From the NCBI RefSeq assembly GCF_004341395.1, contig NZ_SLXT01000005.1:1-64000 (forward strand): a DNA stretch of 64,000 bases, in the 5' to 3' direction. Positions 191 to 19,955 of this stretch are shown in pieces (the stretch's first letter is position 1; every line of letters begins with the position of its first letter). A program made the translations under genes and the position numbers. Below the pieces are notes generated by a model. The model was not told the DNA's origin. It ran no database searches and saw nothing but the letters and a program-made list of their open reading frames with translations. This stretch comes from Heliophilum fasciatum (lineage in GTDB: Bacteria > Bacillota > Desulfitobacteriia > Heliobacteriales > Heliobacteriaceae).

Positions 191-524
191 TAATAAGTCT
201 CTAACGCTATCTTCCGGTACAATTGTTTTTACTGACACAATTAACATGGCGAGTGCAAACTCTTTAGTTCTTCAATTGCCACCTGGTGAAGGGGTGACAA
301 TTGGTAACAGCGATTATGGAAGAGTCTACTTTAAAAATGTCTATATTAATGATGTTTACAATGAGAGTATTTCACATAAAGTTTTTTACTTCAAATCTGG
401 TGCACAAATCCCGTCAGGAACATCTTATTTGCGAGAGATATCTACGATAAATCCAAGTCATAATCCTAAAGATGTTGCTGCACCTTCAATAGAATTGCTT
501 GCGACGCAGGTAACTTGGAAGTAG
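191..524 (+). pseudogene. 3' remnant of a minor pilin or pilus-associated gene truncated by the IS
   Basis: The frame is open from 183, right at the IS junction, to the TAG at 522-524. An ATG at 246 exists, but the protein-like sequence (SLTLSSGTIVFTDTI) continues upstream of it, so this is the tail of a longer gene, not a complete 92-residue protein. The remaining sequence is beta-rich, with no prepilin leader and no membrane helix. It lies 17 bases ahead of a PilV-like gene and a PilW-like gene, so a minor pilin such as PilX is the best guess from context. No family is recognised from the residues themselves. Confidence 0.55.
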
Positions 525-541
525 GCTGGAGGTGATGATTG

Positions 542-1900
542 ATGCAACAACTACGTTCGAACCAATCATCAGGTTTTATATTGGCTGAAATCTTGGTCAC
601 ACTATCAATCTTAGCTATCGTTAGTATTGCGCTCTTTGAGATAATGGCCTTAAGCCATCGAGCAATTCAGACAGCTGCGAACGGAAACCAAACACTTTTT
701 TATAAAATTAATGAAATGGATGATCAAATCCTTAGGGCCAAAGGAAGCACTTCTACTGGACCTAGTAAAAGATTTTTTAATTTGGGCTGGGAGCCAAATA
801 AACAAGTCGTTATCTATGGTACTGGCCTTGAAAAGTACGCCACAGAATCAGGCGATGGCGATGACTCGCTAAATAAACTTAAGGCCTATGTCCCATCAGC
901 CTTTGCCAATCCATGGGCAGTATTCGCAGGTGTTAACAATGGAAATGGTGTAATTGGCTTATATTATAAACCGAATATTGATCCGGACAGCAGCGATTGG
1001 ACAATATTTGACTTACCGGAGTTGTATGATTTTACCCCTGCTAACCTTATTTGGTGTGGTTCTTCAACTAATCAGATGTGGGTTATGGTAGGAAAAGGTG
1101 CTGATGGTAACGGCAAAATTTATACTTCAACGAACTTGCGTAGATGGAATAAGATTGAGGATGATCTCAATAAAAATAAATTTAAACCACTTAATGCAAT
1201 AACTTGGGGAGGAAATGGGACCAATCGTAAGTTTATTGCTGTAGGAAAGAATGCGGTATATAAATCTGCTGATGGGAACAAGTGGGAAAACATTACTCCT
1301 GATTCTGCACTTAATTATACTGATGTTGCTTGGGGGGGACTTTCCGATTCAATTTATGAGGGTTTTGTGGTTACTGCTAGTTTTTATAATACATCTACCA
1401 CAAATCTATATCGATTGACTGAGAAAACAAATGAATGGATTCCAATCACCTATTGGAGTTCTACAGGAACAATTAAACAACCATTTGATTTAGTAGGTGT
1501 TAGTCGAGGTAAAGATCGTTTTGTTGTAGCCGGTAATGTTACATCATCATCCCCTAAAATTATAAATATTGTTGATAATGACACGAAAATGCCAAAATTC
1601 GATAATCCATCAGGTACTCAACCATTAACGGATGTGGCATGGATAGGCGATCGTTTTTTTCTTACTAGAACAAAAGGACAATTTGCGACTTATAAACCTG
1701 ATGACAGTACTGTATGGGAAACAAGTGTCTTAGGCAGTACAGCGGGTACTATTAATACTGCGTTATTAGTTGGTAACCGTGTAGTTATAGCCAATTCAAA
1801 TGGGTTTATTTACTTTTCCGACGAAAATTCACCTACAAGCTTTTCCGACGACGGAAGAGATGTTTCGCCTGTTATTTGGAAGTCAATAGCTAAATCATAA
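542..1900 (+). CDS. Minor pilin with a predicted beta-propeller head
   Basis: This 452-residue protein begins with a class III prepilin signal: a short basic leader, the cleavage site G/FILAE with the conserved glutamate at +5, and a hydrophobic helix to about residue 35. Unlike usual minor pilins (150-200 residues), it continues with about 370 residues of repeated blocks of the type VGKGADGNGKIYTSTNLRRW, VGKNAVYKSADGNKW and VAWGG, typical of BNR/sialidase-like or photosystem-II-assembly-factor-like propellers. I infer a filament-tip protein whose head could bind a ligand or surface. The ATG at 542 is preferred over TTG at 539 because GGAGGTGAT at 528-536 is better spaced. Base composition is clearly AT-rich compared with the rest of the window. 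Confidence 0.7.
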   Translation: MQQLRSNQSSGFILAEILVTLSILAIVSIALFEIMALSHRAIQTAANGNQTLFYKINEMDDQILRAKGSTSTGPSKRFFNLGWEPNKQVVIYGTGLEKYATESGDGDDSLNKLKAYVPSAFANPWAVFAGVNNGNGVIGLYYKPNIDPDSSDWTIFDLPELYDFTPANLIWCGSSTNQMWVMVGKGADGNGKIYTSTNLRRWNKIEDDLNKNKFKPLNAITWGGNGTNRKFIAVGKNAVYKSADGNKWENITPDSALNYTDVAWGGLSDSIYEGFVVTASFYNTSTTNLYRLTEKTNEWIPITYWSSTGTIKQPFDLVGVSRGKDRFVVAGNVTSSSPKIINIVDNDTKMPKFDNPSGTQPLTDVAWIGDRFFLTRTKGQFATYKPDDSTVWETSVLGSTAGTINTALLVGNRVVIANSNGFIYFSDENSPTSFSDDGRDVSPVIWKSIAKS

Positions 1901-1933: not shown

Positions 1934-2566
1934 ATGAAATTGAAAAATAAACATAATCAGGGATTTGCGTTGGCTGAATTACTTGTTGCTACGATGATTC
2001 TAGGATTTACTGTTGCTATAGGATATTCTCTTATAGATTATAGTTTCAATAGCTATAACTTTGGGTATGCACAGACAAACGCACAACAAGATGCTCGTTT
2101 TGCTATGGAACGAATAATACAAGAAGTGAGAAAAGCTAAAACAATAAAAATAGTTACTGAAATGAGTGAAATCGACAAATATCACCACATAAAAGTTGAT
2201 AAGGATACGAATCCTAATGAGCCGAAGTTACAGATATATAAACCAAATATACCTGAACCAGAGGAACTACCATTAGGTAAAGGAATACCTACCAATAGTA
2301 ACAAGGAAGCATTGCCGATTATCTCCTTTTGTAGATATAGTAAAAAAAATGATAAATCAACTCTTGGAATTAGGATTTATGTATATAGCCAAGCGCTTTC
2401 AAGAGATCCTGATCCTGATCCTGAGCCTGATCCGTACGGTGACGATGATTTGGACCCAGGGGTAGGAAACTATTATCGAGTACAAACTGCTATACTTTTA
2501 AATAATACAACATTACCAACAGGCCTAGGATCTGGGCCTGGCCATATAATCCAGTACACAAAATAA
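1934..2566 (+). CDS. Minor pilin, PilW-like
   Basis: This is a 210-residue protein with a prepilin leader ending in QG/FALAELL, a glutamate at +5 and a hydrophobic N-terminal helix. The segment after the helix (QDARFAMERIIQEVRKA) is the pattern seen in PilW/GspJ-type minor pilins. Near residues 155-170 there is an acidic-proline run of D-P repeats encoded by six-base repeats at about 2406-2435. It follows the beta-propeller pilin and precedes pilM after 43 bases, so it probably belongs to the same transcription unit. The gene is AT-rich like its upstream neighbour. The role in filament initiation or tip assembly is taken from the family. Confidence 0.65.
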   Translation: MKLKNKHNQGFALAELLVATMILGFTVAIGYSLIDYSFNSYNFGYAQTNAQQDARFAMERIIQEVRKAKTIKIVTEMSEIDKYHHIKVDKDTNPNEPKLQIYKPNIPEPEELPLGKGIPTNSNKEALPIISFCRYSKKNDKSTLGIRIYVYSQALSRDPDPDPEPDPYGDDDLDPGVGNYYRVQTAILLNNTTLPTGLGSGPGHIIQYTK

Positions 2567-2609: not shown

Positions 2610-3638
2610 TTGCTGAGCTTTTTTAAGCCATCCAGTGCAGTCGGTCTGGAATTTGATACCGGGTGTATTCGCGTTGTGGAATTAAAAGGCACCCGTAAAA
2701 ATCCGGTTTTAGTTGCGGCAGGTCTGGTTCCCATTCCGGATACGGCTGTTGTGGAGGGCATCGTTCAAGAAACTGGCGTAGTTGCGACTGCCCTCAAGCA
2801 ACTTTGGGCAAAGGTCGGTATTCGTAACAAAGAAGTGATTCTCGGTATCTTTAATAAAGGCGTATTTTTGCGGCCTGTCAACTTGCCTAAGGTTCCTGTA
2901 GCCAAGATCCCTCAATTGCTCCGCTACCAGTCAGAAGAGTATTTCCCTATTCCTTTTGCTGAACTGGTCATGGATTTTGCCGTCATCGGTGAAGCTGAAA
3001 AAGCCGAAGGCAATGCCCTTGACTTACTTCTTGTTGCTTCACGACTGGAAAACCAGCGTTCTTGTTACAGTGCCTTAGCTAACGCAGAGATTGTCCCTAA
3101 GGTTGTCGAAGCTTCGCCAATTGCCTTGCTTCACGCTACCGGTGAAGAAGAAAAAAAGGGTGTATCCGTTTATATTGATATTGCCAACGGACAAACAGCA
3201 TTGATGATCACAATCGAGGGTATACCACGCTATTTACGTCAAATCCCTCTTGGTGTCCAACAGATGATCAAAATGATGGATTCAATATGCTTGGACGAAG
3301 TAGCTTCCACTGCAGAAATCGAAGTCGTCCAGTCTAATGAATCATCAACCGTATCGCTTTGGGCACAAGAATTAAGTGATCAATTGCGGGCAACAATTCA
3401 ATTTTTTCTTTCTAAAAATAATCTTTCAGAAATTAATCGCATTATCTTGAGTGGACGAGGTGCGAAAATACCGGAAGTGGCAGAAGAAGTTGGCCAAGCG
3501 ATGGCTGTTCCCGTTACTTCAGCACGACCGCTTTCCCAAATTCCATTGCCTCATACAGTACCTGGATTCGACTTGGTTCGCGAGGCTCCGGAGTTTGCGG
3601 TTTGCCTGGGATTAGCTTTGCGAGGATTGGAGGATTGA
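2610..3638 (+). CDS. pilM: Type IV pilus assembly protein PilM (first copy)
   Basis: PilM is an actin-fold (ASKHA ATPase-like) cytoplasmic protein that binds the N-terminus of PilN and links the motor ATPase platform to the alignment complex. The protein has 342 residues, usual for the family. It opens with AVGLEFDTGCIRVVELK, matching the first phosphate-loop region of the fold, and a later glycine-rich loop reads IILSGRGAKIP. The start is TTG at 2610 behind GGGGGAG at 2596-2602. It heads a tightly packed pilM-N-O-P-Q-like operon. A second PilM lies at 19956-21044. Confidence 0.85.
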   Translation: MLSFFKPSSAVGLEFDTGCIRVVELKGTRKNPVLVAAGLVPIPDTAVVEGIVQETGVVATALKQLWAKVGIRNKEVILGIFNKGVFLRPVNLPKVPVAKIPQLLRYQSEEYFPIPFAELVMDFAVIGEAEKAEGNALDLLLVASRLENQRSCYSALANAEIVPKVVEASPIALLHATGEEEKKGVSVYIDIANGQTALMITIEGIPRYLRQIPLGVQQMIKMMDSICLDEVASTAEIEVVQSNESSTVSLWAQELSDQLRATIQFFLSKNNLSEINRIILSGRGAKIPEVAEEVGQAMAVPVTSARPLSQIPLPHTVPGFDLVREAPEFAVCLGLALRGLED

Positions 3639-3642
3639 TTCT

Positions 3643-4311
3643 GTGAGTGTTCGTTTTAATTTGCTCCCACCGGAGTTGCGATCACGGGAAGAGCAAAAAC
3701 GTACCCAACTTATCGTAAAAACAACGGCAGTAATCGCAGTATCCATCTTCCTCGCTATATTTGCTGTTCTAGCTGTATTCACCTGGATGACTGAGACCAA
3801 TACGGCAGATCTGCGAGCCAAACGAACTGCTTTAGAAGCGGAACTTTTGGAGTATGCTCCTTACGTTCGGATGATGGATCGCATCTATCAAGCCGATGCA
3901 TTGTTGAACAAAGCGGCTGGCAACCAGCCAAATTGGGCACAAACGTTACATGATATGAATATCCATTTACCTTCCGGTGTGTGGCTTAATGACTTATCAG
4001 CAACGTACGGTGGTTCTGCACAAAAGCAAAATCAACCTGCTGCTGAAACGAAAGCGCCTGCTTCACCACCCAGTGCATCTGTGCTTGGTGAAATAACGAT
4101 GCGGGGACAGGCATACAGTGCCGTGGACTTGGCCGAATGGCTGAAAGGATCCGAACAAGTATCGTCGCTTTCCAATGCGCGCTTCCAATCAACATCGGCA
4201 CAAAATGTCAATGGGCAACCGGTCTATCAGTTTGAGATCAAAGCGGACATAGTCAAATCCCCCAAATCAGCACCCCTAACTGAGAAAGGGGGCAAAGCAG
4301 ATGAAGGATAA
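3643..4311 (+). CDS. pilN: Type IV pilus inner-membrane protein PilN (first copy)
   Basis: PilN is a bitopic membrane protein of the alignment subcomplex, and its cytoplasmic tail docks into PilM. The signature RFNLLPPELR is at residues 3-13, followed by a basic stretch, one membrane helix at about 25-50 and an extracytoplasmic coiled-coil/ferredoxin-fold region. The length of 222 residues is normal, with a proline/alanine linker near 130-150 (QPAAETKAPASPPSAS). It begins with GTG four bases after pilM and overlaps pilO by 11 bases, a sign of translational coupling. Confidence 0.8.
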   Translation: MSVRFNLLPPELRSREEQKRTQLIVKTTAVIAVSIFLAIFAVLAVFTWMTETNTADLRAKRTALEAELLEYAPYVRMMDRIYQADALLNKAAGNQPNWAQTLHDMNIHLPSGVWLNDLSATYGGSAQKQNQPAAETKAPASPPSASVLGEITMRGQAYSAVDLAEWLKGSEQVSSLSNARFQSTSAQNVNGQPVYQFEIKADIVKSPKSAPLTEKGGKADEG

Positions 4312-4828
4312 AAAAGGGATAGAACTAGATACCAAACAAACGGTTATCGCAATCATAGCTTTATTTTTATTTGTTGGGTTAATTTATTATCAATACACAG
4401 CACTGGCCGAAGCAAAAGCAGAAGAAAGTAAAGAACAAAAAATGTACACGCAGGTGCAAAGTCAAGTTCGGGAATACATACAACAAAAAGAATTATTCGA
4501 AAGTAATCAACAAAAGGCTGCTCTTTATGATCAACTGATGCCGAAGCAAGCCGATGAACCGCAGTTGCTGACAGTCATTCAGCATCAAGTTACAATCAGC
4601 GGTATGGAGCTAACAAGAATCAATTTTGCTCCGCGTATCAATCAGGACGGATATACAGAAATGCCCTTTACTTTATCAATAAAGGGAAGCTACAATAATC
4701 TCATCGAACTCACCGACCAGTTAAGGCAGAGTAAACGCGCATTACGAATTGATTCAATCAATGTAAATCAAGAAGGACAAAGCGACATTCGAGCGGAAAT
4801 CAAAGCGAGTGCATTTTATGCACAATAG
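4301..4828 (+). CDS. pilO: Type IV pilus inner-membrane protein PilO (first copy)
   Basis: This 175-residue protein has a short basic N-terminus, one membrane helix at about 12-30 (VIAIIALFLFVGLIYYQY), a charged coiled coil, then a ferredoxin-like domain containing the LLTVIQHQVTISGMELTRINF stretch typical of PilO/GspM-type proteins. PilO dimerises with PilN to form the alignment complex above PilM. The gene overlaps the end of pilN and is followed 25 bases later by the PilP-like gene. Assignment rests on position, topology and the conserved segment. Sequence conservation in this family is low. Confidence 0.75.
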   Translation: MKDKKGIELDTKQTVIAIIALFLFVGLIYYQYTALAEAKAEESKEQKMYTQVQSQVREYIQQKELFESNQQKAALYDQLMPKQADEPQLLTVIQHQVTISGMELTRINFAPRINQDGYTEMPFTLSIKGSYNNLIELTDQLRQSKRALRIDSINVNQEGQSDIRAEIKASAFYAQ

Positions 4829-4853: not shown

Positions 4854-5495
4854 GTGCAGTTCGTGGCAGGAGAAAAAGAAAAATCGCTTAATGAACAGTT
4901 TTCCGCACTCATGGATAGATTAAATACCGATAAAGAGTTGCAGAAAAAAGTATTCATCGGCGGTGGTTTGCTCCTGGTAGTAATACTGGCAGCGGTACTG
5001 CTGGTCAATAAGCCATGGGCAGCGGCACCGGAAGAAGCGGTGCCCGTAGATAAACAAGCGGCCCGAAGTTTAACGTATTTACCGGAAACGCAACGCAGCG
5101 TTGATGATACAAGCTTGCTGCGGGATCCCTTTAGTGGGGCCATCACGCTCAAAGGAATCATCAAGGGTGGCGATGGTAACGATGTGGCGATCATAGAAAA
5201 CGGTAAAACTTCCTATGTCGCTGCACTGGGAGCACAAGTCGGTAACGGTTGGTCCGTTGCGGAAATTACCGCTAATTCTGTGACCTTAGCATCTGATTCA
5301 CAAAAAATTAAGTTAGAATTAAATGGTCGCAACAAAAGCGAAAAAATAACCAATTCAGTCGATAAGAAAAATGATACAAAGGCTGCCGCAGGACAGGCGA
5401 CAGCACCTGAGAAAGCGACGATAGAAACGGCGAAGGATGCTGCTGCGAAGGACACTTCGGTGAAGAGCACTTCTGCCAGCGGAGGGAATCAATGA
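4854..5495 (+). CDS. PilP-like pilus assembly protein
   Basis: This 213-residue protein has a cytoplasmic N-terminus, a membrane helix at about 35-55 and an extracytoplasmic part with the PilP-type motif SLLRDPFSGAITLKGI, followed by a small beta domain (VAIIENGKTSYVAALGAQVGNGWSVAEI). The tail is low-complexity, rich in lysine, alanine and threonine. In Gram-negative pili PilP is a lipoprotein that connects PilN/O to the PilQ secretin. Here no lipobox is seen and the N-terminus is an uncleaved membrane anchor. The GTG at 4854 behind AGAAAGGGA is used; GTG at 4863 is possible. The stop overlaps the next start (ATGA). Confidence 0.65.
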   Translation: MQFVAGEKEKSLNEQFSALMDRLNTDKELQKKVFIGGGLLLVVILAAVLLVNKPWAAAPEEAVPVDKQAARSLTYLPETQRSVDDTSLLRDPFSGAITLKGIIKGGDGNDVAIIENGKTSYVAALGAQVGNGWSVAEITANSVTLASDSQKIKLELNGRNKSEKITNSVDKKNDTKAAAGQATAPEKATIETAKDAAAKDTSVKSTSASGGNQ

Positions 5496-6763
5496 TGGTC
5501 GTCAAAAATGACAACGTCAAAAAACAACATTCCGCTGCGCGCTTGCCGACTTGGGCAGTTACTGCATTGTGCGTTGGTGTATGCGCAACCGCGCTGACCT
5601 TAACACCATTACCGCAGGCAAGTGCTTATTCCGGTACGGAGATACTGACAGCAAGTGAAACCGATTCATTGAGCAGCGGATCTAAGATTTCGATGGACGT
5701 GCGCAATGTGGATATGCGCGACGTGCTTTCAGCATTGGCTTTAAAGATGGGTGTCAATATCATTTTAGTTGATACGGAAGCGGTAGAAATAACGTTTCAA
5801 ACTAAAAATGTAACACCACGACAAGCTCTGGAATTGTTGATCCAAACCCACGGTTACGCTTATATTGAACAAGGTGGTGTGATCGTCGTTGGTGAGTCGG
5901 GCACTCTCAACGATAATTTCTTTAATCAAATGATCGTAACTCGCTTTGATACAGTCAACGTGAAAGCCAAAAAAGCAATGGACTTAATCAATGCGCTTGG
6001 CATTCCGCTAAAAGCAGTATCCTTAGACTCCAATGAATACGTGTTCTGGGCACAAGGTACTGTACAGTCAATGCAAAAAGTACAGGAAGTGATTTATTCG
6101 ATTGATCGACCCGAGAATGCGGAAACACCTACCATGGATATTACGCTTGAATACAGGACGATCAATACACAACAAATTCCTCCTGATCGGGCAGTTAAAT
6201 TGTTAGATGACATCGGCATTAAATTTAAGCATTACGTAAAACTACAAGATCGCGTACTTGTTTTCGACAAAGACTGGTTTAGTAAGTGGGATCAGATTGA
6301 TGTCTTACTGGCGCAACTTGATAATCAGGGCTCAAAAGATCAGACCAGCTTTAACTATCAATTAAAAAATATCGTAGCAAAAGACGCTAAATCTCGATTA
6401 GCTGAATTTAATTTGGGTGCAGATGTAAAAGCAATATCGTATAATAATGATAGATTTGCCAAAGACATCATGATCATTTGCCCGACATATATGGAGAATC
6501 AAGTTCGCAGCGCCTTGGCCAGCTTGGATTTATCAATTTCCAAGACCCGTGTGCCTGTGGCCACATCACCTTCGTTTACAGGTCTTAATACACAAAGAAC
6601 GTTGCTTAGCGAACTTTCTGGCGTAGCGCTAAGTAGCTTTAATATCTCAGGGGACATTGGAACCACTGACCAAGCTAGTGGCGGCACTCCGAAATATGTT
6701 CTTTGGGTAGAGGAAACACCGGACAAGATCCAAATGATCAAAGATCTGGCCGATGAAATGTAA
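5492..6763 (+). CDS. PilQ-like secretin N-domain protein without the barrel
   Basis: This 423-residue protein has a signal peptide ending near QASA (about residue 45). A secretin N0/STN domain follows (ISMDVRNVDMRDVLSALALKMG, about 65-130), with the PilQ/GspD-like hallmark of a short beta-alpha unit. Two or more N1-like repeats come next (VNVKAKKAMDLINALGIPLKAV, and YQLKNIVAKDAKSRLAEF). PilQ and GspD proteins are usually 550-750 residues and end with a conserved multimerising barrel. Nothing like that barrel is present, and the protein ends at a normal stop after a further alpha-beta segment. I infer a periplasm-like or wall-zone collar for a pilus in a cell without an outer membrane. It is the last gene of the pilM operon. 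Confidence 0.65.
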   Translation: MMVVKNDNVKKQHSAARLPTWAVTALCVGVCATALTLTPLPQASAYSGTEILTASETDSLSSGSKISMDVRNVDMRDVLSALALKMGVNIILVDTEAVEITFQTKNVTPRQALELLIQTHGYAYIEQGGVIVVGESGTLNDNFFNQMIVTRFDTVNVKAKKAMDLINALGIPLKAVSLDSNEYVFWAQGTVQSMQKVQEVIYSIDRPENAETPTMDITLEYRTINTQQIPPDRAVKLLDDIGIKFKHYVKLQDRVLVFDKDWFSKWDQIDVLLAQLDNQGSKDQTSFNYQLKNIVAKDAKSRLAEFNLGADVKAISYNNDRFAKDIMIICPTYMENQVRSALASLDLSISKTRVPVATSPSFTGLNTQRTLLSELSGVALSSFNISGDIGTTDQASGGTPKYVLWVEETPDKIQMIKDLADEM

Positions 6764-6863: not shown

Positions 6864-6956
6864 ATCAAAGGATGATGGAACTCATAATATAAATATAGGT
6901 TAATGGGTTCTATTAAACTACAAAAGCCCATATTATGCTTAAAGGAGGTGAAATCT

Positions 6957-7322
6957 TTGCGTAAAGCGCTTAAGCGTATCAAAAAAAATATAAAAGGCTT
7001 TACCCTTGTGGAATTGATGGTTGTTGTACTTATCATCGGGATTTTGATTGCGATTGCCATTCCGATGTACACAAAAGCACAAGAGTCGGCCATGGATAAA
7101 ACAACCCGTGCTAACGCCCGCATGATTCATGGAGCCGTATCGCAATGGCAAGCTCAAGAAAACAGGACAGACTTCCCCAATGAAACCCAATTGAAAAACT
7201 TCTTCCAGAGCGGTGGTTGGCCAAAAGGACCGAATAACATTGAGTACAACTATGCTAACGGTGTAGTTACGATCACTAACGTTCCCTATAATGGCTTTAA
7301 CGGTAACAACACAAATCTTTAG
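6957..7322 (+). CDS. Small type IV pilin (first of a twin pair)
   Basis: This 121-residue prepilin has a basic leader, the cleavage site KG/FTLVELMVVV, a glutamate at +5 and a long hydrophobic helix. It ends in a short, cysteine-free head rich in asparagine, glycine and tryptophan. The start is TTG at 6957, nine bases past the start of AAAGGAGGTG; an upstream ATG at 6903 has no comparable ribosome site. The mature part differs from the pilin at 7674-8039 by only about four residues. The abundant-pilin role is inferred from the strong ribosome site, small size and own terminator. Confidence 0.85.
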   Translation: MRKALKRIKKNIKGFTLVELMVVVLIIGILIAIAIPMYTKAQESAMDKTTRANARMIHGAVSQWQAQENRTDFPNETQLKNFFQSGGWPKGPNNIEYNYANGVVTITNVPYNGFNGNNTNL

Positions 7323-7673: not shown

Positions 7674-8039
7674 GTGTTAGCAACATTCCGCCGTCTCAAG
7701 AAGAAAAAACAAGGCTTCACTCTCGTAGAACTGATGGTTGTCGTATTGATTATTGGAATCCTGATAGCTATTGCCATTCCGATGTATACAAAAGCACAGG
7801 AGTCAGCCATGGATAAAACAACACGTTCCAATGCCCGCATGATTCACGGAGCCGTATCGCAATGGCAAGCTCAAGAAAACAGGACAGACTTCCCCAACGA
7901 AACCCAATTGAAAAACTACTTCCAGAGCGGCGGTTGGCCAAAAGGACCGAATAACATTGAGTACAACTACGCTAACGGTGTAGTTAAGATCAGTAATGTT
8001 CCTTACAATGGCTTCAACGGTAACAACACAAATCTTTAG
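7674..8039 (+). CDS. Small type IV pilin (second of a twin pair)
   Basis: This 121-residue prepilin starts with GTG at 7674 behind GGAGGAAAAATTA. The leader (MLATFRRLKKKKQG) differs from that of the first copy, but from FTLVELMVVV onward the proteins are almost identical, with changes such as Ala to Ser after TTR, Phe to Tyr in KNYFQ and Thr to Lys near the end. The second half and the 3' region are nearly identical in DNA too. This suggests recent duplication or gene conversion. It has its own terminators and may allow separate expression of almost the same pilin. Confidence 0.85.
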   Translation: MLATFRRLKKKKQGFTLVELMVVVLIIGILIAIAIPMYTKAQESAMDKTTRSNARMIHGAVSQWQAQENRTDFPNETQLKNYFQSGGWPKGPNNIEYNYANGVVKISNVPYNGFNGNNTNL

Positions 8040-8721: not shown

Positions 8722-9831
8722 TTGTTGTTTGACCTGTACGCTGATGATTACAACCGGTTCAGCGGAGAATTCGCTGACAGGACAGAAAGAATACTGCGAG
8801 AAGTGAAACCGACGATACCGCCGGTGGCCGCGCAACCACCATTAACACCGTTACAACCGGTAGCCCCCCTGCCGGATCTACCTTCAAATTGGGGTAATCC
8901 ACCCATGTCCCAAGAGCCCGGATGGATGCCACCGGATGAGCGAGCTCCGGAAGCAATGCCGCCAGTAATGCCGCCAGCAATGCCACCAGCAATGCCGCCA
9001 ATCGAGAAGCCGCCAGTGCCGCCGATGAGAACCAAACCCGAAGTAACTGAACCGAAAGTACCGGAACCCGAAGCAAAGGAACCGGAAGTACCGGAATTAG
9101 GAGGGACGCCACCGATGAAAAAAGAACCTGTATCGCTTCCGTCCATGCCCTGCGAACCGGGATATACCATGCCGCCCCTGTATCCGATGCCAGGTATGAT
9201 GCCGGAGGAAACCGAGCCCATGCCAGGATGGATGCCAGGAAGAACACCGGCATGTACACCGGAACCGATGCCGGGCTACATGCCGGGTTACATGCCAGGC
9301 TGCATGCCAGGAACCATGCCGGGATGGATGCCGGGGGTACATCCGGGATGGATGCCAGGGGCGATGCCGGGTGTCATGCCGGGAACGATGCCGGGTGTCA
9401 TGCCGGGAACGATGCCGGGTGTCATGCCGGGAACGATGCCGGGTGTCATGCCGGGAACCATGCCGGGTACAGCGCCGCAAACGATGCCCGAACAACTTGT
9501 GCCGATGCTGCCCCCCAGCGGTGGATTGATTCCCCGTACAGGAACCGAAGCACCGGGTATGCTGCCGGTCGAACAATCGTATATCGAAAATATCTTACGC
9601 CTTAACAAAGGTAAACTGGGCACCTTCTACATGACCTATGAAGAAAACACCCAGTGGAATGCCAAAGTATTTAAGGGAATCATTGAGGCCGCCGGCCGTG
9701 ATCACGTGATTATCAGTTGCCCGAAAACGGGAAAACGCTACTTACTCCTCATGGTTAATCTGGATTATGTAACGTTTGATGAAGAAATTGCTTATAATTA
9801 TCCCATTGCGCAGTTGTCAATTCGTCCGTAA
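8722..9831 (+). CDS. gerQ: Spore coat protein GerQ with a long Met-Pro-Gly repeat region
   Basis: GerQ is a coat protein that anchors CwlJ and is cross-linked by transglutaminase in Bacillus. The C-terminal part (about residues 290-369) carries the GerQ core: [40 protein letters not shown] and [19 protein letters not shown]. Ahead of it are about 270 residues dominated by proline, methionine and glycine, including strings of MPG units (residues about 150-255). Bacillus GerQ is about 180 residues, so this version is roughly twice as long. The start is TTG at 8722 (or TTG at 8725) after CGAGGTG. It follows cwlJ by 88 bases. Confidence 0.85.
9364..9459 (+). repeat. 24-base tandem repeat inside gerQ (four copies)
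   Basis: Four copies of a 24-base unit start at 9364, 9388, 9412 and 9436, each encoding MPGVMPGT. They differ at no more than one or two bases. The flanking MPG-coding triplets are less regular, so this block looks recently expanded. Confidence 0.9.
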
Positions 9832-9984: not shown

Positions 9985-11706
9985 ATGGCGAAAGCAGAAC
10001 GCAAAATGCTTGGGGATCTGTTAGTCGAATATCGAATTATCACCCGTGAGCAATTGCAGGAAGCGTTAACAATTCAGAAGAAAACTGGGGAGCGTCTTGG
10101 TAAAGTTCTTACGAAGTCCAAAATTGTTTCCCAACAACAAATTAATGAGATCTTAGAGTTTCAACTGGGCATTCCGCAAGTGTCCTTGTTGAAATTTTCC
10201 ACCGATCCGGAAGTTATCCGCTTAATACCGGAATCCATTTGCCGGCAACATAAATGTTTGGCATTGAAACGTAACGAAAAGCGGCTTACCGTCGCCATGG
10301 CCGATCCCTTGAATGTCATCGCCATGGATGATGTTAAGATGGCTACGAAACTGGATGTCGATCCGGTTATCGCCACGGAAGAAGATATTGAATCGATTCT
10401 CAATCAAGTCTATGGCATGGGGGCATCGCGGGGCGCAGCCGTACGCGTCTTGGAAGCGGCGGCCGGTGGATCGAATGACATGCCTGGCAGTATGAGCGAA
10501 CTGGACATGCTCGATCTCGATCGGATGGATGCAGGTGCCGATGCCCCGGTCGTACGGGTGGTCAATATGATCCTCCAGCAAGCCGTGCAGGATCGGGCGA
10601 GCGACATTCACATTGAAATCAATGAGCAAAATATTAAAGTGCGCTATCGTGTCGACGGCATGCTTCGGGAGATGATGACGATCGCCAAGCATGCCCATGC
10701 TTCGTTAATGTCACGAATCAAACTTTTGGCCGAGATGGATATTGCTGAAAAGCGCGTGCCCCAAGACGGCCGGATTCAGATCAAACTGGACAAAAAACCG
10801 ATTGATCTCCGGGTGTCGACGCTGCCAACGATCTTTGGCGAAAAATGCGTCATCCGTCTCTTGGACAAAGCCAACATGTTCTACAAGTTGGAGGACCTGC
10901 ACTTTCGCGAAGATCCATTAAAGATGTATCGTAAGCTCATTCGCAATGCCTTTGGGATCGTGCTGGTCACCGGGCCCACCGGTTCCGGGAAAACCACCAC
11001 ACTGTATGCGACGATTGCCGATATTAACAGTTCCGAAAAAAACATCGTGACTATTGAAGATCCGGTGGAGTATGTGTTGCCGGGGATCAATCAAGTGCAA
11101 GTCAACGTCAAGGCCGGCGTCACCTTTGCCAGTGGGCTGCGTTCGATTCTTCGGCAGGATCCCGATGTGATCTTAGTTGGTGAGATTCGTGATGGCGATA
11201 CGGCCGATATTGCCGTTCGGGCAGCCACCACGGGCCACCTGGTCTTTTCCACGCTGCATACCAATGACGCTGCCGGGGCCATTGCCCGGCTCATCGATAT
11301 GGGAGTGGAACCGTTTTTGGTGGGTTCCTCCCTGACTGGTGTCCTGGCCCAGCGGTTGGTACGCAAGATTTGTCCCCATTGTAAAGAATCCTATGAGCCG
11401 GAACCGGGATCGGCAGAACGGCTATTTCTCAGCCTTGATCGGGAAGCATCGGCGGTGCTGCATCGAGGAAAAGGCTGTTTTGCTTGCAATTATACCGGTT
11501 ATAAAGGGCGCTTGCCGATTCAAGAGGTCATGCCGGTTACGTCCCACGTGCGCGAGCAGATTTTAGCAAAAGCCGCGACCGATACGGTGCGCAGTGCGGC
11601 GATACGCAACGGCATGTATACCATGCGTGATGACGGTATCGAGAAAGTCATGCAGGGATTGACGACGGTCCAAGAAATCATGCGCGTAGCCTATACGACA
11701 GAATAA
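9985..11706 (+). CDS. pilB: Type IV pilus extension ATPase PilB
   Basis: PilB is the hexameric cytoplasmic ATPase that powers pilus extension. The 573-residue protein has an N-terminal MshEN-type region with two copies of the RLGxxL-type motif (LGDLLVEYRIITREQLQEAL and RLGKVLTKSKIVSQQQINEI), a fold known to bind cyclic di-GMP or ATP in relatives. The ATPase core shows Walker A GPTGSGKTTT (about 329), Asp box ITIEDPVEY, Walker B VILVGEIRD (about 392) and the His box TLHTNDA. A four-cysteine zinc site follows (CPHC at about 462 and CFAC at about 498). It opens the second pilus locus, 34 bases ahead of pilT. Confidence 0.93.
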   Translation: MAKAERKMLGDLLVEYRIITREQLQEALTIQKKTGERLGKVLTKSKIVSQQQINEILEFQLGIPQVSLLKFSTDPEVIRLIPESICRQHKCLALKRNEKRLTVAMADPLNVIAMDDVKMATKLDVDPVIATEEDIESILNQVYGMGASRGAAVRVLEAAAGGSNDMPGSMSELDMLDLDRMDAGADAPVVRVVNMILQQAVQDRASDIHIEINEQNIKVRYRVDGMLREMMTIAKHAHASLMSRIKLLAEMDIAEKRVPQDGRIQIKLDKKPIDLRVSTLPTIFGEKCVIRLLDKANMFYKLEDLHFREDPLKMYRKLIRNAFGIVLVTGPTGSGKTTTLYATIADINSSEKNIVTIEDPVEYVLPGINQVQVNVKAGVTFASGLRSILRQDPDVILVGEIRDGDTADIAVRAATTGHLVFSTLHTNDAAGAIARLIDMGVEPFLVGSSLTGVLAQRLVRKICPHCKESYEPEPGSAERLFLSLDREASAVLHRGKGCFACNYTGYKGRLPIQEVMPVTSHVREQILAKAATDTVRSAAIRNGMYTMRDDGIEKVMQGLTTVQEIMRVAYTTE

Positions 11707-11739
11707 TGAAAGATCGAAGATAGAAGATGGGAGCTAATC

Positions 11740-12843
11740 ATGGATATTGATTCGATACTCACCTTTGCGGTGAAGCAAAAAGTCTCAGACGTTCATATTA
11801 CCGTAGGATTGCCACCGGTATTTCGCATGCATGGTGAAATGGTGCCGGCCACGGAGCCGCCATTAGCAGAGCAGACCATTGGTGCAGCGTGGGCGCAAGT
11901 GCTAACCCCGGATGACACAGCGCGCATCATGGGCCAATTGCTGAATGACAAGCAACGGGCCACCTTTGAACGAGCCGGTGATCTTGATTTTGCTTATGCC
12001 ATTCCTGCCATCGGCCGCTTCCGTGTCAACTGCTATCGTCAACGCGGTTCAGTCGGTATGGTCATTCGTGTGATTCCTTTTTATGTGCCTACTTTTGAAG
12101 AACTGAATCTTCCGCCGATACTGGCTACCTTTGCCCGGCGAACGAGCGGCTTAGTACTGGTCACGGGTCCGACCGGAAGCGGCAAGTCGACGACCCTGAC
12201 GGCCATGATCGATCTCATCAATAAGGAACGGGCGGCCCATATCATCACTTTGGAAGATCCCATTGAGTTTTTGCATCCCCATATCAAAAGTGTGGTCAAC
12301 CAGCGTGAAGTGGGGCTCGATACCGAATCGTTTGCCAAAGCATTGCGGGCGGCGATGCGGCAAGATCCCGATGTATTGCTGGTCGGTGAGATGCGTGACT
12401 TAGAAACGATTAGTACCGCCATTACAGCGGCGGAAACGGGCCATTTGGTCTTTGCAACACTGCATACCAATGATGCGGTCCAAACCATTGATCGGGTGAT
12501 CGATGTCTTTCCGCCAAGTCAACAAGCGCAAATTCGCGTGCAGTTGGCAGCAGTACTACAGGCCGTTGTGTCGCAACAACTGATTCCGCGGATGGACGGG
12601 CGCGGGCGGGTGGTAGCCCAAGAGATCTTAGTCGTCACCCATGCAGTGCGCAACCAGATCCGTGAAGGTAAGTCCCATCAGATCGTATCGACGCTGCAAA
12701 CGGGCAGTAAAATGGGCATGCAAACGATGGATATGGCCCTGCGTGCGTTGATCGCTAAACGAATGGTGACAGCGCAAGAAGCCATGAAGCGTTCCGCCGA
12801 TCCGGAAGCCTTCCAACGGTATATCATGCACGATTTTATGTAG
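11740..12843 (+). CDS. pilT: Twitching motility/retraction ATPase PilT
   Basis: PilT is the hexameric ATPase that depolymerises the pilus and drives retraction. The 367-residue length is typical. Features are the N-terminal PAS-like start (VKQKVSDVHITVGLPPVFRM), Walker A GPTGSGKSTT (about 142), Asp box LEDPIEFLH, Walker B VLLVGEMRD (about 214) and the HTNDAVQTIDRVIDVFP segment. The AIRNLIRE-like motif near the C-terminus appears as AVRNQIREGK. There is no zinc tetracysteine, which separates it from PilB. It lies between pilB and pilC, the usual order. Confidence 0.93.
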   Translation: MDIDSILTFAVKQKVSDVHITVGLPPVFRMHGEMVPATEPPLAEQTIGAAWAQVLTPDDTARIMGQLLNDKQRATFERAGDLDFAYAIPAIGRFRVNCYRQRGSVGMVIRVIPFYVPTFEELNLPPILATFARRTSGLVLVTGPTGSGKSTTLTAMIDLINKERAAHIITLEDPIEFLHPHIKSVVNQREVGLDTESFAKALRAAMRQDPDVLLVGEMRDLETISTAITAAETGHLVFATLHTNDAVQTIDRVIDVFPPSQQAQIRVQLAAVLQAVVSQQLIPRMDGRGRVVAQEILVVTHAVRNQIREGKSHQIVSTLQTGSKMGMQTMDMALRALIAKRMVTAQEAMKRSADPEAFQRYIMHDFM

Positions 12844-13078
12844 CCTTTTGTAAGCATTCTGTAAGCAACGAATGCTATACTGAAAATGACATTGGATAGG
12901 ATATTTCACCGAATCCACACAGGAACGTGTACAAAAAAAGTAGTTATATGGCAAAGTGAATGCAGGAAAACAATGATTTTTAACGAATTAAGGGCATATC
13001 TGTTGCAAGTAATCGATATAATTTGCGTTACCACTACTAACTGGCAAAGATGCCAAGGGCGCATCGGAGTGATATAGC
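12844..13078 (+). promoter_or_regulatory. pilT-pilC intergenic region with a candidate extended -10 promoter
   Basis: This 235-base gap in an otherwise packed operon contains no convincing gene; a 63-codon frame at 12886-13077 lacks a ribosome site and protein-like composition. An extended -10 sequence, TGCTATACT, is at 12873-12881, with only weak -35 candidates upstream. It could give pilC and the pilin a separate promoter. Confidence 0.35.
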
Positions 13079-14314
13079 ATGCCTACGTTCCGATACAAGG
13101 TGCGCGAGCAATCAGGTGCGGCCCGTGAGGGGACCATGGAAGGCGAAGCCGCACAGGCGGTAGCGCTGCGATTGCGAGAAAATGGCCTTTTTGTAATTAC
13201 TGTTGAAGCTATCAAAGAACAAAGCAAAGCCGGTAACTCTCTTTCCTTAGACGCCCTTTTTCAGCGCAAAATGAAAGCCGCCGAGTTGGTGTTGTTTTGC
13301 CGGCAGTTTGCCACGCTGCTCAATGCTGGTGTACCGCTTTATAATGCGCTGGTCATCTTACAGGAACAGGGGCGTAATGAGGCCTTTCGCCAGGCGATGA
13401 ACAGTGTTATTGATGATGTGCGTAAAGGAAATACCTTTTCCGCATCGGTTAGCAAGCATACGAAGGTTTTTCCCGATATCTTTGTCAGCATGGTGGAAGC
13501 GGGAGAACTGGGCGGGATTCTCGATGAGATCATGCTTCGTTTAGCAACGCACTTCGAAAAAGAAAATGATCTGCAAAGCAAAGCCAAATCAGCGATCATC
13601 TATCCGGTGATCATCTCGATTGTGGCCGTGGGTGTTGTAGCGTTTTTGATTGGCTATGTGATTCCTACGTTCTCGGAAGTGCTTACCGATATGGATGTGC
13701 AATTGCCGCTGATTACCCGGATTGTCTTGGCGATTGCTTATGCAGTACAAGACTACTGGTATCTTGGTTTTGTGGCAGTTTTGGTTGCCGCCCTAACGTA
13801 CCAGCAGGCGATGAAACAAGCATCGATGCGCTATTTGCGCGATCTATACATCCTCAAGATTCCTTTTTTCGGTGAATTGCTGTTGAAAGTTGCCGTGGCG
13901 CGCTTTACCCGTACCTTAGGTACGCTGCTCAAAAGCGGTGTGCCGTTGATGCAGTCCTTAGAAGTGGTCAAGAAAACCGTCGGTAACTTGGTGGTCAGCG
14001 AGGGGATTGGCAATGCGCAGGAAAGCATTACCCGCGGTATGGGCATCTATGAACCGCTGAATACCAATCCTGTGTTTCCTCGGATGGTCGTGCAAATGGT
14101 CGGTGTCGGCGAAGAAACCGGTATGCTGGATCAAATGCTGGAGAAAATCGCCGACTACTACGATACCGAAGTCGGGACCATCGTCGGGCGCATGTCATCG
14201 GTGATCGAGCCGATCTTGATGGTGATCATGGGTATTATCGTTGGCGTTATCGTGATTGCCATGTTTCTCCCGATGTTTGAGATGATCGGTCCCAGCGGAC
14301 CGGCTGCTCAATAA
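13079..14314 (+). CDS. pilC: Type IV pilus platform protein PilC
   Basis: PilC is the polytopic inner-membrane platform that sits on the PilB or PilT hexamer. The 411-residue protein starts with PTFRYKVREQSGAAREGTMEG, the family's cytoplasmic N-terminus. It contains two T2SSF domains (FCRQFATLLNAGVPLYNAL at about 80 and FTRTLGTLLKSGVPLMQSLE at about 278, each followed by MVEAGELGG or MVGVGEETG) and three membrane segments, the last at about 380-400. The PilC of the third locus (39845-41146) is a clear paralogue. Confidence 0.92.
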   Translation: MPTFRYKVREQSGAAREGTMEGEAAQAVALRLRENGLFVITVEAIKEQSKAGNSLSLDALFQRKMKAAELVLFCRQFATLLNAGVPLYNALVILQEQGRNEAFRQAMNSVIDDVRKGNTFSASVSKHTKVFPDIFVSMVEAGELGGILDEIMLRLATHFEKENDLQSKAKSAIIYPVIISIVAVGVVAFLIGYVIPTFSEVLTDMDVQLPLITRIVLAIAYAVQDYWYLGFVAVLVAALTYQQAMKQASMRYLRDLYILKIPFFGELLLKVAVARFTRTLGTLLKSGVPLMQSLEVVKKTVGNLVVSEGIGNAQESITRGMGIYEPLNTNPVFPRMVVQMVGVGEETGMLDQMLEKIADYYDTEVGTIVGRMSSVIEPILMVIMGIIVGVIVIAMFLPMFEMIGPSGPAAQ

Positions 14315-15002: not shown

Positions 15003-15518
15003 ATGGTGAAACGGAGTTCAGCTGGCTTTACGATGGTGGAACTGATGATCACGATCGCCATTTTATTTATTGGTATCTTGCCGGTTTTTTCACTGTACAG
15101 TGAAGTCGGCAAACTGAGTCGAGTAGAAAAGCAAAAAGCTGTCGCCGTGCAACTGGCGACAGAGCGACTGGAAAAAGTTAAGAAGATCATGATCGATGAA
15201 AAGGTGTTATTCACCGATAGTCAAAAATGGTATCATCTGCTTTACCAAACGATGCCCGATGAAACGGTGATAACGTCATGGGAAGAGTTCCTAATAGGTA
15301 ACTTTAATGAAACGAAAACGGATGCAAGCGCTGGTAATTATCTGGTTGAACTAAACATCAGTAACATCGAAACAGATCCAGATTCACAACATGAAAATAT
15401 CGTTGCATCTGAATGGGTTTATTTAAATCAGCTAAATAAACTGACCGTGACCGTGCGTTGGCCGGCAGCGACGAAGGAACATGCCGTAGAGTTAGCCACT
15501 TATGTAACACCGCGATGA
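15003..15518 (+). CDS. Minor pilin, PilV/GspI-like
   Basis: This 171-residue protein has the prepilin motif AG/FTMVELMITIAILFIGILP, a glutamate at +5, and the QLATERLEKVK segment that in PilV/GspI-type proteins follows the helix. The end (VTVRWPAATKEHAVELATYVTPR) matches the usual closing beta strand with the W-x-x-x-x-x motif. It lies with PilW-like and PilX-like genes, a set that primes filament assembly and forms the tip. The ATG at 15003 follows AAGGAAG by about ten bases. Confidence 0.75.
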   Translation: MVKRSSAGFTMVELMITIAILFIGILPVFSLYSEVGKLSRVEKQKAVAVQLATERLEKVKKIMIDEKVLFTDSQKWYHLLYQTMPDETVITSWEEFLIGNFNETKTDASAGNYLVELNISNIETDPDSQHENIVASEWVYLNQLNKLTVTVRWPAATKEHAVELATYVTPR

Positions 15519-15562
15519 TTGAAGACGAAAAATAGAGCAGTACGATCGTGTGGTGATGGAAG

Positions 15563-16486
15563 TTGGATAGGAAAAAACAGCAACGGGGTTTTACCCTTAT
15601 CGAACTGATGATGACCATAGGGATTCTCAGTATATTGTTGACAGCCGTCTTTTCGATATTGCGTTTGAATACAGAGATTTTTTATCGTGAAGAGCGCGGT
15701 GCATCGGTACGCCTCGAAGATCGCCGAATCATTCGGCAGCTGATCGATGATATCCAACAGGCTTTTCATGTAAACATTCAGGTTAAATCCGATGAGACTA
15801 CGATGGAGTTAACCAGAGGATATCAAAGTGGTTCTCCTCAAAATCAAACGTACAAATTGAAAAAAAACGCAGGCAGTACTGCCTATACGTTGTCAGTTAA
15901 GGATGGAACTGCTCAAGAAATAACGTACACATCCATACGTATTTATCCGTTGGCTCCAGGAGTTGATTTCTTTTCTTATGATGGTAAGAATGTCGGCATC
16001 AATATGTTGTATGCTGATACCCATAGCGCTAGTTCTGAGGAAGCACAGACGATTACCATGCAAACCAAAGTGACGCCTCGTTTGGACCGGGGAAATCTAC
16101 AAAACTTAAAGTTCTGGCTGAGTACAACCGGTGAACCGGGTAGTTGGGTAGAGAACACTGATTTATTCCATTTAGCGGGGATTACGAACTATACCTACCG
16201 CGATAATGATGACAGCCCCGGAACCTATAAAGGTGGCTATATGAAGGTAGAAGCAACACCGATGGACTCACGAGATGTAGTAAAAGTAGAAATCAAAAGT
16301 GATGATGGTTTAGCGTTGCTACCGGCGACCTCGAGCGGATCCGGGGTATGGACATGCAATTTGTCGAGCACTAAAGTAGAAAATCAAATTGTGATTACCG
16401 TGGAAGGTTCCGAAACGAATCCGAAAGATCCGGCAGCACCTTTTCGCTATCTCAAGGAATATGAGTTGTGGATCTATACGCAATAA
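15563..16486 (+). CDS. Minor pilin, PilW/GspJ-like
   Basis: This 307-residue protein has the prepilin leader MDRKKQQRG, cleavage before FTLIELMMTIGIL and a glutamate at +5. The post-helix region reads RLEDRRIIRQLIDDIQQAF, the pattern of PilW/GspJ proteins. It is longer than usual for the family (about 200-250 residues). The additional C-terminal segment ends in a small beta-rich part (WICNL-like strands, ITVEGSETNPKDPAAPFRY). The start is TTG at 15563. The next gene starts 13 bases after this stop. Confidence 0.75.
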   Translation: MDRKKQQRGFTLIELMMTIGILSILLTAVFSILRLNTEIFYREERGASVRLEDRRIIRQLIDDIQQAFHVNIQVKSDETTMELTRGYQSGSPQNQTYKLKKNAGSTAYTLSVKDGTAQEITYTSIRIYPLAPGVDFFSYDGKNVGINMLYADTHSASSEEAQTITMQTKVTPRLDRGNLQNLKFWLSTTGEPGSWVENTDLFHLAGITNYTYRDNDDSPGTYKGGYMKVEATPMDSRDVVKVEIKSDDGLALLPATSSGSGVWTCNLSSTKVENQIVITVEGSETNPKDPAAPFRYLKEYELWIYTQ

Positions 16487-16499
16487 GGGGGAGGTTCGA

Positions 16500-17339
16500 T
16501 TGAGCCAGCGATTGAGCCCGCCTGTGATCAGGCAAGTGATGCGCAAGGCTTGGCGTTCCGAGCGCGGAGCATTGCCGTTAGCCATGATCGTGCTGACGAT
16601 CATCGTAACAATGTCAGCGGCGATTGCACGCTATGTGTTCTTTGAAAGTGGATCCGATGGATCCCGGAAGCACTTGGAGAATATCCAACTTCGTTATGCT
16701 GCTGGATCCGGTGCGGAACATTATATTTATTTTATTCGCAAGCAATTAAATGCCAAATTAAAGCATCTTAGGCTCGCAACGGAGCAAACGGGGGATGTAG
16801 TACGCTGGCGAGTCGATGATGAGGTAGACTATCTTAAGGACAATAACCCGGATCTGGGAAAAGCGCAGACGATCGACAACCTTTGCTACTTGACGGAATC
16901 GGAATTAAGCGAAGCGTCCTGGAAATCAACAGAATTAGCGCGAGCGATCACGATGGGCAATCGCTCATTCGGTTACCGCTTACTGACTCAAGCAGAAGCA
17001 GGTGGCAAAAATCCCGTGGTACAAAGTAATTCCGGAGGTCAAGAAAACGCAGGGAATGAGGAAGGGGATATTCGAAGCGGTGGTACCATCCAAACCATCC
17101 AAGGACCGTCCATTGTCTTAGCGCCGACGCCGAATGTGCGCGATTCTTTTCAAGTGCGCTTTCAGATTGTGCCGACCCTTAATGGAACAACGCCGGCTCA
17201 GCAACCGATCAAAGTGGCGGCAGGGTTTTCGGTCATGGCGGTTCAGGAAGGAATTCCTTATACAGTAATTAAAAATGTGCCACCTGCATCGGTGCAGGAA
17301 TTTCAAATCCGCAAGTTGAATCTTCAATTGGTGCAATAG
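16500..17339 (+). CDS. Minor pilin, PilX/GspK-like
   Basis: This 279-residue protein has the N-terminus RSERGALPLAMIVLTIIVTMSAAIARYVFFE, which looks like a prepilin helix but has leucine/alanine instead of glutamate at position +5. This is the known character of GspK/PilX-type tip subunits. The region after the helix (LRYAAGSGAEHYIYFIRKQL) also matches the AEAGxxxA-type pattern of PilX. The start is TTG at 16500 behind GGGGGAGG (16488-16495); the in-frame ATG at 16461 overlaps the previous gene. With the PilV- and PilW-like genes it completes a tip complex set. Confidence 0.7.
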   Translation: MSQRLSPPVIRQVMRKAWRSERGALPLAMIVLTIIVTMSAAIARYVFFESGSDGSRKHLENIQLRYAAGSGAEHYIYFIRKQLNAKLKHLRLATEQTGDVVRWRVDDEVDYLKDNNPDLGKAQTIDNLCYLTESELSEASWKSTELARAITMGNRSFGYRLLTQAEAGGKNPVVQSNSGGQENAGNEEGDIRSGGTIQTIQGPSIVLAPTPNVRDSFQVRFQIVPTLNGTTPAQQPIKVAAGFSVMAVQEGIPYTVIKNVPPASVQEFQIRKLNLQLVQ

Positions 17340-17364: not shown

Positions 17365-18159
17365 ATGGAGTTTGTGGCCGATTATGGGTTGCCGTTTATT
17401 CTTTTTATGTTTGGGTTGGCGATCGGCTCATTTTTAAATGTGGTGATCTATCGTTTACCACGGGAAGAGTCGCTGGTTGTGCCTGGCAGCCATTGTCCGT
17501 CTTGTAATGCGTCTTTGCGTTGGTATGAGCTTTTTCCGGTGGTAAGCTATCTCTGGCAACGAGGACGGTGCCGCCATTGTTCGGCGCCCATCGCTTGGCG
17601 CTATCCGGCAGTGGAACTGGTCGTGGGCCTATCGTTTGCCGGTTTGCTGTTGGCCTTGGGGACCTGGGATTGGCGCTGGCTGGTGTTGGCAGTGCTGGTG
17701 ACGATCTTGGTGGCGATCACCGGTATCGATATGGATCATCTGATTATTCCTAATCGCTTGCTGCTCTTGGCACTGCCCTTTTGTTTATCGGGGCCTTGGT
17801 TCTGGGCATGGCCATCGTTACCGGCGGCACCGGAATTCTGGTCAGCTGCTTTGGGCGGTGTGACGGGGGCCGGTTTGCTCGGTGGGGTCTTTGTTGCCAG
17901 CCGCGGTGGTATGGGCCTCGGTGACGTGAAATTTATGGCTGTATTTGGTTTGTTTTTGTCGCCGCTCTGGACCGTATGGTCCCTGACGATCGGCAGTTTA
18001 TTCGGATCGTTATGGGGGCTGGTTGGTATGGTGGGCGGCCGTTATGGCCGGAAGTCGGAGATCCCCTTTGGGCCTTTTTTGGCGTTGGGCTGGATCGTCG
18101 TGGTTTTATTGCGACTTTTTGGTTTTTCACCGGATGTGGTGTCCTTGTTGATTCGTTAG
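17365..18159 (+). CDS. pilD: Prepilin peptidase PilD/GspO
   Basis: This aspartyl membrane protease cleaves prepilin leaders and N-methylates the new N-terminus. The 264-residue polytopic protein has the N-terminal methylase-type domain with two CxxC pairs (CPSC about 44, CRHC about 69) and the FLNVVIYRLPRE motif. The catalytic aspartates are in GIDMDHLIIP (about 121) and GLGDVKFM (about 186). It is the only prepilin peptidase in the window, so it probably serves all three pilin loci. It starts at ATG 17365 after the minor pilins. Confidence 0.93.
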   Translation: MEFVADYGLPFILFMFGLAIGSFLNVVIYRLPREESLVVPGSHCPSCNASLRWYELFPVVSYLWQRGRCRHCSAPIAWRYPAVELVVGLSFAGLLLALGTWDWRWLVLAVLVTILVAITGIDMDHLIIPNRLLLLALPFCLSGPWFWAWPSLPAAPEFWSAALGGVTGAGLLGGVFVASRGGMGLGDVKFMAVFGLFLSPLWTVWSLTIGSLFGSLWGLVGMVGGRYGRKSEIPFGPFLALGWIVVVLLRLFGFSPDVVSLLIR

Positions 18160-18198
18160 CAAAAAAAGACTTCCTGACGAGAAGGAGTGGTCAGCGCG

Positions 18199-19937: not shown

Positions 19938-19955
19938 GCTGGCGGAGGTGACGAT

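Follow-up and report, generated by a model that had tools for sequence, protein, structure and literature searches.

The window analysed here, a 64,000-nucleotide stretch of the Heliophilum fasciatum genome, begins at base 1 of contig C5 in an assembly of 3.14 Mb and 73 contigs, and opens into a type IV pilus operon (Table 1). Positions 542-1900 on the forward strand form a single unbroken reading frame of 452 amino acids plus a stop codon; the gene is intact and its ribosome-binding site is good. It is preceded by the 3' part of a PilX-like gene and followed by genes for a PilW-like prepilin and for much of the pilus machinery. Another set of minor-pilin genes, undisrupted, lies at 15003-17339.

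Table 1. Features of the pilus operon and of the fusion gene (window positions).
Feature	Position	Strand	Basis
Insertion sequence end, at contig start	1-190		24 genome matches, mostly contig ends; conserved end ...TTTTTAGACAGACTC
3' part of PilX-like gene, very probably cut by the insertion sequence	191-524	+	5' part at start of contig C19
Shine-Dalgarno-like GGAGGTGA at 528-535, 6-base spacer, then ATG 542	528-541	+	Sequence
Predicted class III prepilin leader MQQLRSNQSSG (residues 1-11; next FILAE)	542-574	+	Pfam N_methyl and pilin alignment
Pilin module, residues 12-121: hydrophobic alpha1 and small beta domain, end KAYVPSAF	575-904	+	Alignment with short PilV pilins
Probable blade 1 (strands b-c-d), residues 125-160	914-1021	+	Repeat register by comparison with relatives
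Probable blade 2, holds short Asp-box STNLRRW	1040-1162	+	Repeats and motif
Probable blade 3, holds short Asp-box SADGNKW	1190-1300	+	Blade profile (30.4 bits) and motif
Probable blade 4	1316-1450	+	Self-alignment repeats
Probable blade 5	1484-1609	+	Self-alignment repeats
Probable blade 6	1625-1735	+	Self-alignment repeats, blade profile; model confidence low from here onward
Probable blade 7 (a-b-c and weak d)	1751-1855	+	Self-alignment repeats; low model confidence
C-terminal strand VSPVIWKSIAKS, a proposed strand a for blade 1 that would shut the ring	1862-1897	+	Proposed from alignment
PilW-like prepilin, 210 aa, next gene in operon	1934-2566	+	N_methyl E=5.1e-4; found at this place in each of the other five fusion loci
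PilM, PilN and PilO genes	2610-4828	+	Pfam PilM_2 4e-32, PilN 2e-8, PilO 3e-15
Extension ATPase (MshEN and T2SSE), PilT-like ATPase, platform protein (T2SSF)	9985-14314	+	Pfam
Prepilin peptidase PilD	17365-18159	+	Pfam A24_N_bact 1e-35, Peptidase_A24 1e-11

The window holds two PilM/N/O-type sets (2610-4828 and 18187-21044); by eye, the genes of the latter run N, O, M. Positions 4854-6763 encode one protein resembling PilP/T2SSC and another resembling a secretin, in a genome that is presumably monoderm; monoderms are without PilP and secretin according to a review (PMC6916266). Pfam recognised an STN domain but no secretin barrel in the secretin-like protein, and a relative (L073:2685-4301) has Secretin_N and STN, also without a barrel. 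Tandem near-identical prepilins at 6903-7322 and 7674-8039 likely reflect a recent duplication of a major pilin, and a protein with a long MPGxMPG-type repeat is encoded amid the pilus genes at 8722-9831. The genome also carries a PsaA/PsaB-family reaction-centre gene.

An earlier note on this DNA, made from the sequence alone, had read the 452-residue protein as a class III prepilin signal and helix followed by about 370 residues of repeats. The signal was borne out: G11 at position -1 is followed by F12 and by a glutamate at +5 (E16), G11 and E16 are invariant in alignment with other pilins, and Pfam N_methyl covers residues 7-32 (E=6.6e-4) with a score of 19.6, slightly below the curated cut-off of 21.2. 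Cleavage by PilD is predicted after G11. The repeats also stood, but the boundary has to move, as residues 12-121 match, end to end, whole short PilV-type pilins (116-134 residues) from two same-family genomes, leaving about 330 residues for the propeller described below. These short PilV pilins of relatives end just past a conserved F/Y-x-P (FVPxx) whose proline is invariant (n=9 sequences), and the fusion subunit matches the GspI family TIGR01707 weakly (E=0.0021). By these alignments the N-terminal part is a complete PilV/GspI-type pilin module; because it aligns as a complete pilin from end to end, the head would have been gained by, or lost from, an otherwise full pilin.

The remainder of the protein consists of seven blade-like units spaced about 40-50 residues apart. 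When the head was aligned with itself, the off-diagonal score was 85, compared with 36.7 +/- 5.6 for 60 shuffles, none of which reached 85. A blade profile made from 25 repeats of two free-standing secreted proteins, with the fusion sequence left out, matched the fusion protein at E=9.1e-14 (best of 2000 shuffles, 0.046), a somewhat flattering value since the profile proteins had been picked for matching this head; repeat by repeat, one blade scored about 30 bits and the others weakly. The same profile found propellers among PDB sequences, weakly, and a direct PDB sequence search with the fusion protein found no propeller match. Pfam and NCBIfam scans name no family for the head, and Pfam PSII_BNR does not match the fusion protein, although it does match the relative G166.

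A single-sequence AlphaFold2 run on the full protein gave a pLDDT of 39. The head was modelled separately from 14 head sequences, because an alignment mixing pilin and head fragments was misregistered. This model is all-beta, with a pTM of 0.71 and a mean pLDDT of 63.9. A Foldseek search with it against the PDB returned 277 matches at E<=0.001 (best E 3.7e-6), and the best 50 of these 277 are mainly propellers (Ycf48, WD40 proteins, LGI1 EPTP, AAL lectin; TM 0.38-0.56), with Ycf48 and WD40 proteins prominent. The fold matches and pTM support a propeller fold; the last two blades lie mostly below a pLDDT of 50, so that a closed ring, which the earlier note had proposed to look for, stays a proposal. 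The C-terminal strand resembles strand-a motifs such as YTDVAWGG, and the ends of relatives carry a similar extra strand; read from the alignment, the C-terminal VSPVIWKS would serve as strand a for blade 1. Repeats, homology, profile and model matches together put 'propeller' at high, not full, confidence, and residues from about 122 to 452 very probably form a seven-bladed beta-propeller.

Searching 399 genomes of the phylum with the head alone yielded two secreted proteins, each showing 14 clear repeats of this type, and a head profile placed the propeller family in 32 of the 399, the fusion genome counted. In at least five other genomes (G310, G166, G232, G128 and G420) the propeller is carried on a prepilin; this is a minimum, since loci mostly represent one match per genome. 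Each of these five fusion genes is flanked immediately by a PilX-like gene (375-416 aa) on one side and a PilW-like prepilin gene (178-205 aa) on the other, and most have PilN/O-, ATPase-, platform- or PilT-looking genes nearby, judged mostly from sequence starts. Pfam recognised PilX_N (just below cut-off) and DUF7305 in two PilX-like proteins of fusion loci, and N_methyl and PSII_BNR, both above cut-off, in the G166 fusion. G166 and G232 are near-identical and form one genus with G128, so that the five may represent three independent lineages. The search for this fusion in other pilus loci, which the earlier note had proposed, thus turned up further genomes with a fixed operon place. Repeats, homology and synteny, together with a fold modelled at moderate confidence, support the proposed joining of a prepilin to a propeller.

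The five other fusions have about 100 extra residues between pilin and propeller that are absent in the Heliophilum fusion. Close relatives of the head are few: no fusion was found in the other 82 genomes searched of the same class, and no further one in the order of G128 (four genomes searched); a 60-genome search of relatives gave, among its further matches, the pilin part only. Scanning a genome collection with the fusion protein returned no match, as did a plasmid search, and the same collection scanned with a propeller relative returned one distant protein besides the query itself. By pairwise score the Heliophilum head is closer to two secreted propeller proteins (110-138) than to the fused heads (87-104), and its pilin module is nearest to a same-family short pilin (104, versus 55-79 for the pilins of other fusions). 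These values hint at a separate fusion event in this lineage, as far as pairwise scores go with the pilin-module tree unresolved.

The closest head sequences, in G378 and G355, belong with those of G448 and G141 to free-standing secreted proteins of the same phylum that share the blade motif V-x-W-G...F-V-A-V-G...S-x-D-G-x-x-W. Unlike the fusion, these four proteins have 14 repeats and no prepilin signal, and in some of them a signal peptide is combined with a C-terminal membrane segment. Fourteen repeats in four of four are as expected for two seven-bladed rings.

In two same-family genomes the slot of the fusion gene is occupied by a short headless PilV. In relatives from the same family and class it is the adjoining PilW-like pilin that bears large additional domains, which Pfam identifies as chitobiase-C-like and Ig-like and which by eye resemble Ig-like repeats or a lectin-like end. 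Such a swap of extras between neighbouring pilins is consistent with the modular-pilin idea put forward in PMC8179133. Large pilins beside short PilV-type ones, with chitobiase-C-, Ig- or lectin-like-looking extensions, occur at L022:14431-16245, L022:8319-9722, L023:6008-7918, L024:5156-6511 and L025:4516-6183. At L020:10640-12664 (G034), 3' of a 600-aa PilX-like gene, lies a 675-aa prepilin with an exact Asp-box (SKDGGRTW) near its end. By eye this is a candidate propeller fusion; it gains no support from its repeat score of 37 versus 38.1 +/- 9.9 in shuffles, from the blade profile (E of 3.5) or from the fusion-head profile.

Large heads on minor pilins ('modular pilins') are known and widespread, with more than 1,200 proteins in 264 architectures counted in PMC8179133. 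None of the 15 most frequent architectures quoted in the text of that paper was recognised as a propeller, and literature searches found no paper on a propeller-bearing pilin. The earlier note's view that the combination is not a standard minor pilin type can accordingly be kept for the propeller head as a variant, but not for large-headed minor pilins at large, nor for the fusion as a singular case. The protein has a complete pilin module (residues 1-121) ahead of an extra C-terminal module, this module is unspecific to pilus biology, its repeats being found in secreted proteins too, and the gene lies among type IV pilus genes; on sequence comparison the fusion is a real, recurrent variant of modular pilins. 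With a class III signal, a large C-terminal module grafted onto a small pilin one, and a monoderm-type operon containing PilM/N/O, it recalls Streptococcus sanguinis PilB and PilC, head-bearing minor pilins that act as adhesins (PMC8179133; PMC9934059), whose heads, by contrast, are vWA (PilB) and a concanavalin-A-like lectin (PilC). As in the PilC/PilY1 tip adhesins, a propeller is tied to minor pilins of the type IV pilus tip; PilY1, however, is a separate non-pilin protein bound by minor pilins, and the fusion protein has a prepilin signal and, in the Pfam scan, no IPR008707-type domain. Ycf48/HCF136 (PSII_BNR), seven-bladed propellers with Asp-box-like motifs, are similar in fold, being among the best 50 of the 277 PDB matches, and the relative G166 exceeds the PSII_BNR cut-off, but the head here is more diverged, has no Pfam match and sits on a pilin.

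We favour, at a probability of roughly 0.7, a modular minor pilin in which a PilD-cleaved PilV/GspI-type module forms part of the tip complex and presents a seven-bladed propeller as a binding head. PilD would remove the leader after G11, and residues 12-121 would remain as the pilin module and join the tip complex alongside the PilX-like and PilW-like operon partners. The head, its ring shut by the C-terminal strand, would bind a ligand on a surface, a cell or a macromolecule and, upon pilus retraction, pass on the pulling force. Cleavage, tip location, ring closure and ligand binding are all steps that we infer; display at the tip is the most likely arrangement because a bulky head fits poorly into the filament shaft. 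By likeness to S. sanguinis PilB/PilC a tip-displayed adhesin is plausible, and by analogy a binding head seems the most likely role. Next in likelihood comes a part in assembly such as the PilY1 propeller plays.

In that second role, the propeller of the PilV-type subunit would replace the C-terminal propeller of PilY1, helping minor pilins to prime assembly and resist retraction, and any ligand binding would be secondary. PilC/PilY1 is described as the carrier of a C-terminal propeller that acts with minor pilins (PMC8179133; PMC7541494); monoderms reportedly lack it (PMC9934059). In the fusion, the propeller is borne by the subunit with the weak GspI match, in a place kept between PilX-like and PilW-like genes. 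The lack of a PilY1-type domain in the Pfam scan speaks against such a part, as do the two same-family relatives, in which the pilin manages without a head, and the large domains on neighbouring PilW-like pilins, which have more the look of exchanged effectors than of a constant piece of the assembly apparatus; we consider it unlikely. A further reading, compatible with the favoured one, concerns the present state of the set. The insertion sequence at the start of the contig has a sister copy with a DUF772 transposase domain, and the 5' part of the PilX-like gene lies at positions 1-708 of contig C19 (L096; PilX-like by profile, E=5.7e-12), where it runs off the contig start after a platform-protein gene. 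Each half adjoins an insertion-sequence end and both junctions share TAATA, as expected for a target-site duplication. Very probably the PilX-like partner was interrupted by the insertion sequence, with C5 and C19 left unjoined in the assembly; the tip complex that carries the propeller may then be without function in this strain. The fusion would then be a remnant, a formerly working tip head in an idle set, with the intact second set at 15003-17339 serving the pilus. Yet the fusion gene retains its frame and its ribosome-binding site, the insertion could be recent, and no close relative was found by which to gauge decay; we hold the remnant reading as tentative.

Readings that depart from a propeller binding head altogether fare worse. 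Another repeat fold would suit a head that Pfam and NCBIfam leave unnamed and a model of modest confidence, but it is hard to square with the blade-profile E of 9e-14, the mainly propeller folds among the best 50 of 277 Foldseek matches and the G166 score above the PSII_BNR cut-off, and is very unlikely. The description of the repeats as BNR-like held only in part. The motifs in the head have the short form S/T-x-D/N-x-x-x-W, the short Asp-box being a defined form (PMC2716378), and two strict copies compare with 0.19 expected by shuffling (P=0.017), a marginal enrichment; a looser pattern occurs three times versus 1.27 expected (P=0.13, non-significant). The full Asp-box S-x-D-x-G-x-T-W is absent from the head, which places it outside Asp-box (BNR) propellers in the strict sense, and the short motifs alone are weak evidence for a propeller. 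Sialidases contain Asp-box-like motifs, and relatives show weak NCBIfam matches to a BNR-type glycosylhydrolase, which could point to a sialidase or other glycosidase borne by the pilus. The fusion protein, however, contains no RIP/FRIP motif of the kind found in GH33 sialidases, the closest folds among the best 50 of 277 include Ycf48 and WD40 scaffolds, and Asp-boxes are structural, lying opposite the active site in glycosidases and far from glycan sites (PMC2716378); we regard an enzyme as highly improbable. Because Asp-boxes are structural and distant from glycan sites they give no hint of glycan binding either, and the glycan-binding head that had been suggested is unsupported: BNR-like motifs should not be taken as a sign of it.

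A tip-displayed propeller on a modular minor pilin would add this fold to the repertoire of minor-pilin heads, at a fixed operon place where relatives are headless and carry other domains on the neighbour, and the 'swap the head' view of pilus evolution becomes testable in a concrete gene family. It is a doubtful conjecture that monoderms, which lack PilY1, built a tip propeller into a PilV-type pilin at least twice, once in this heliobacterium-like lineage (no spacer domain, head nearest to secreted propellers) and once in other lineages of the phylum (with an extra domain in between). The fusion may in this sense be a monoderm counterpart of the PilY1 propeller.
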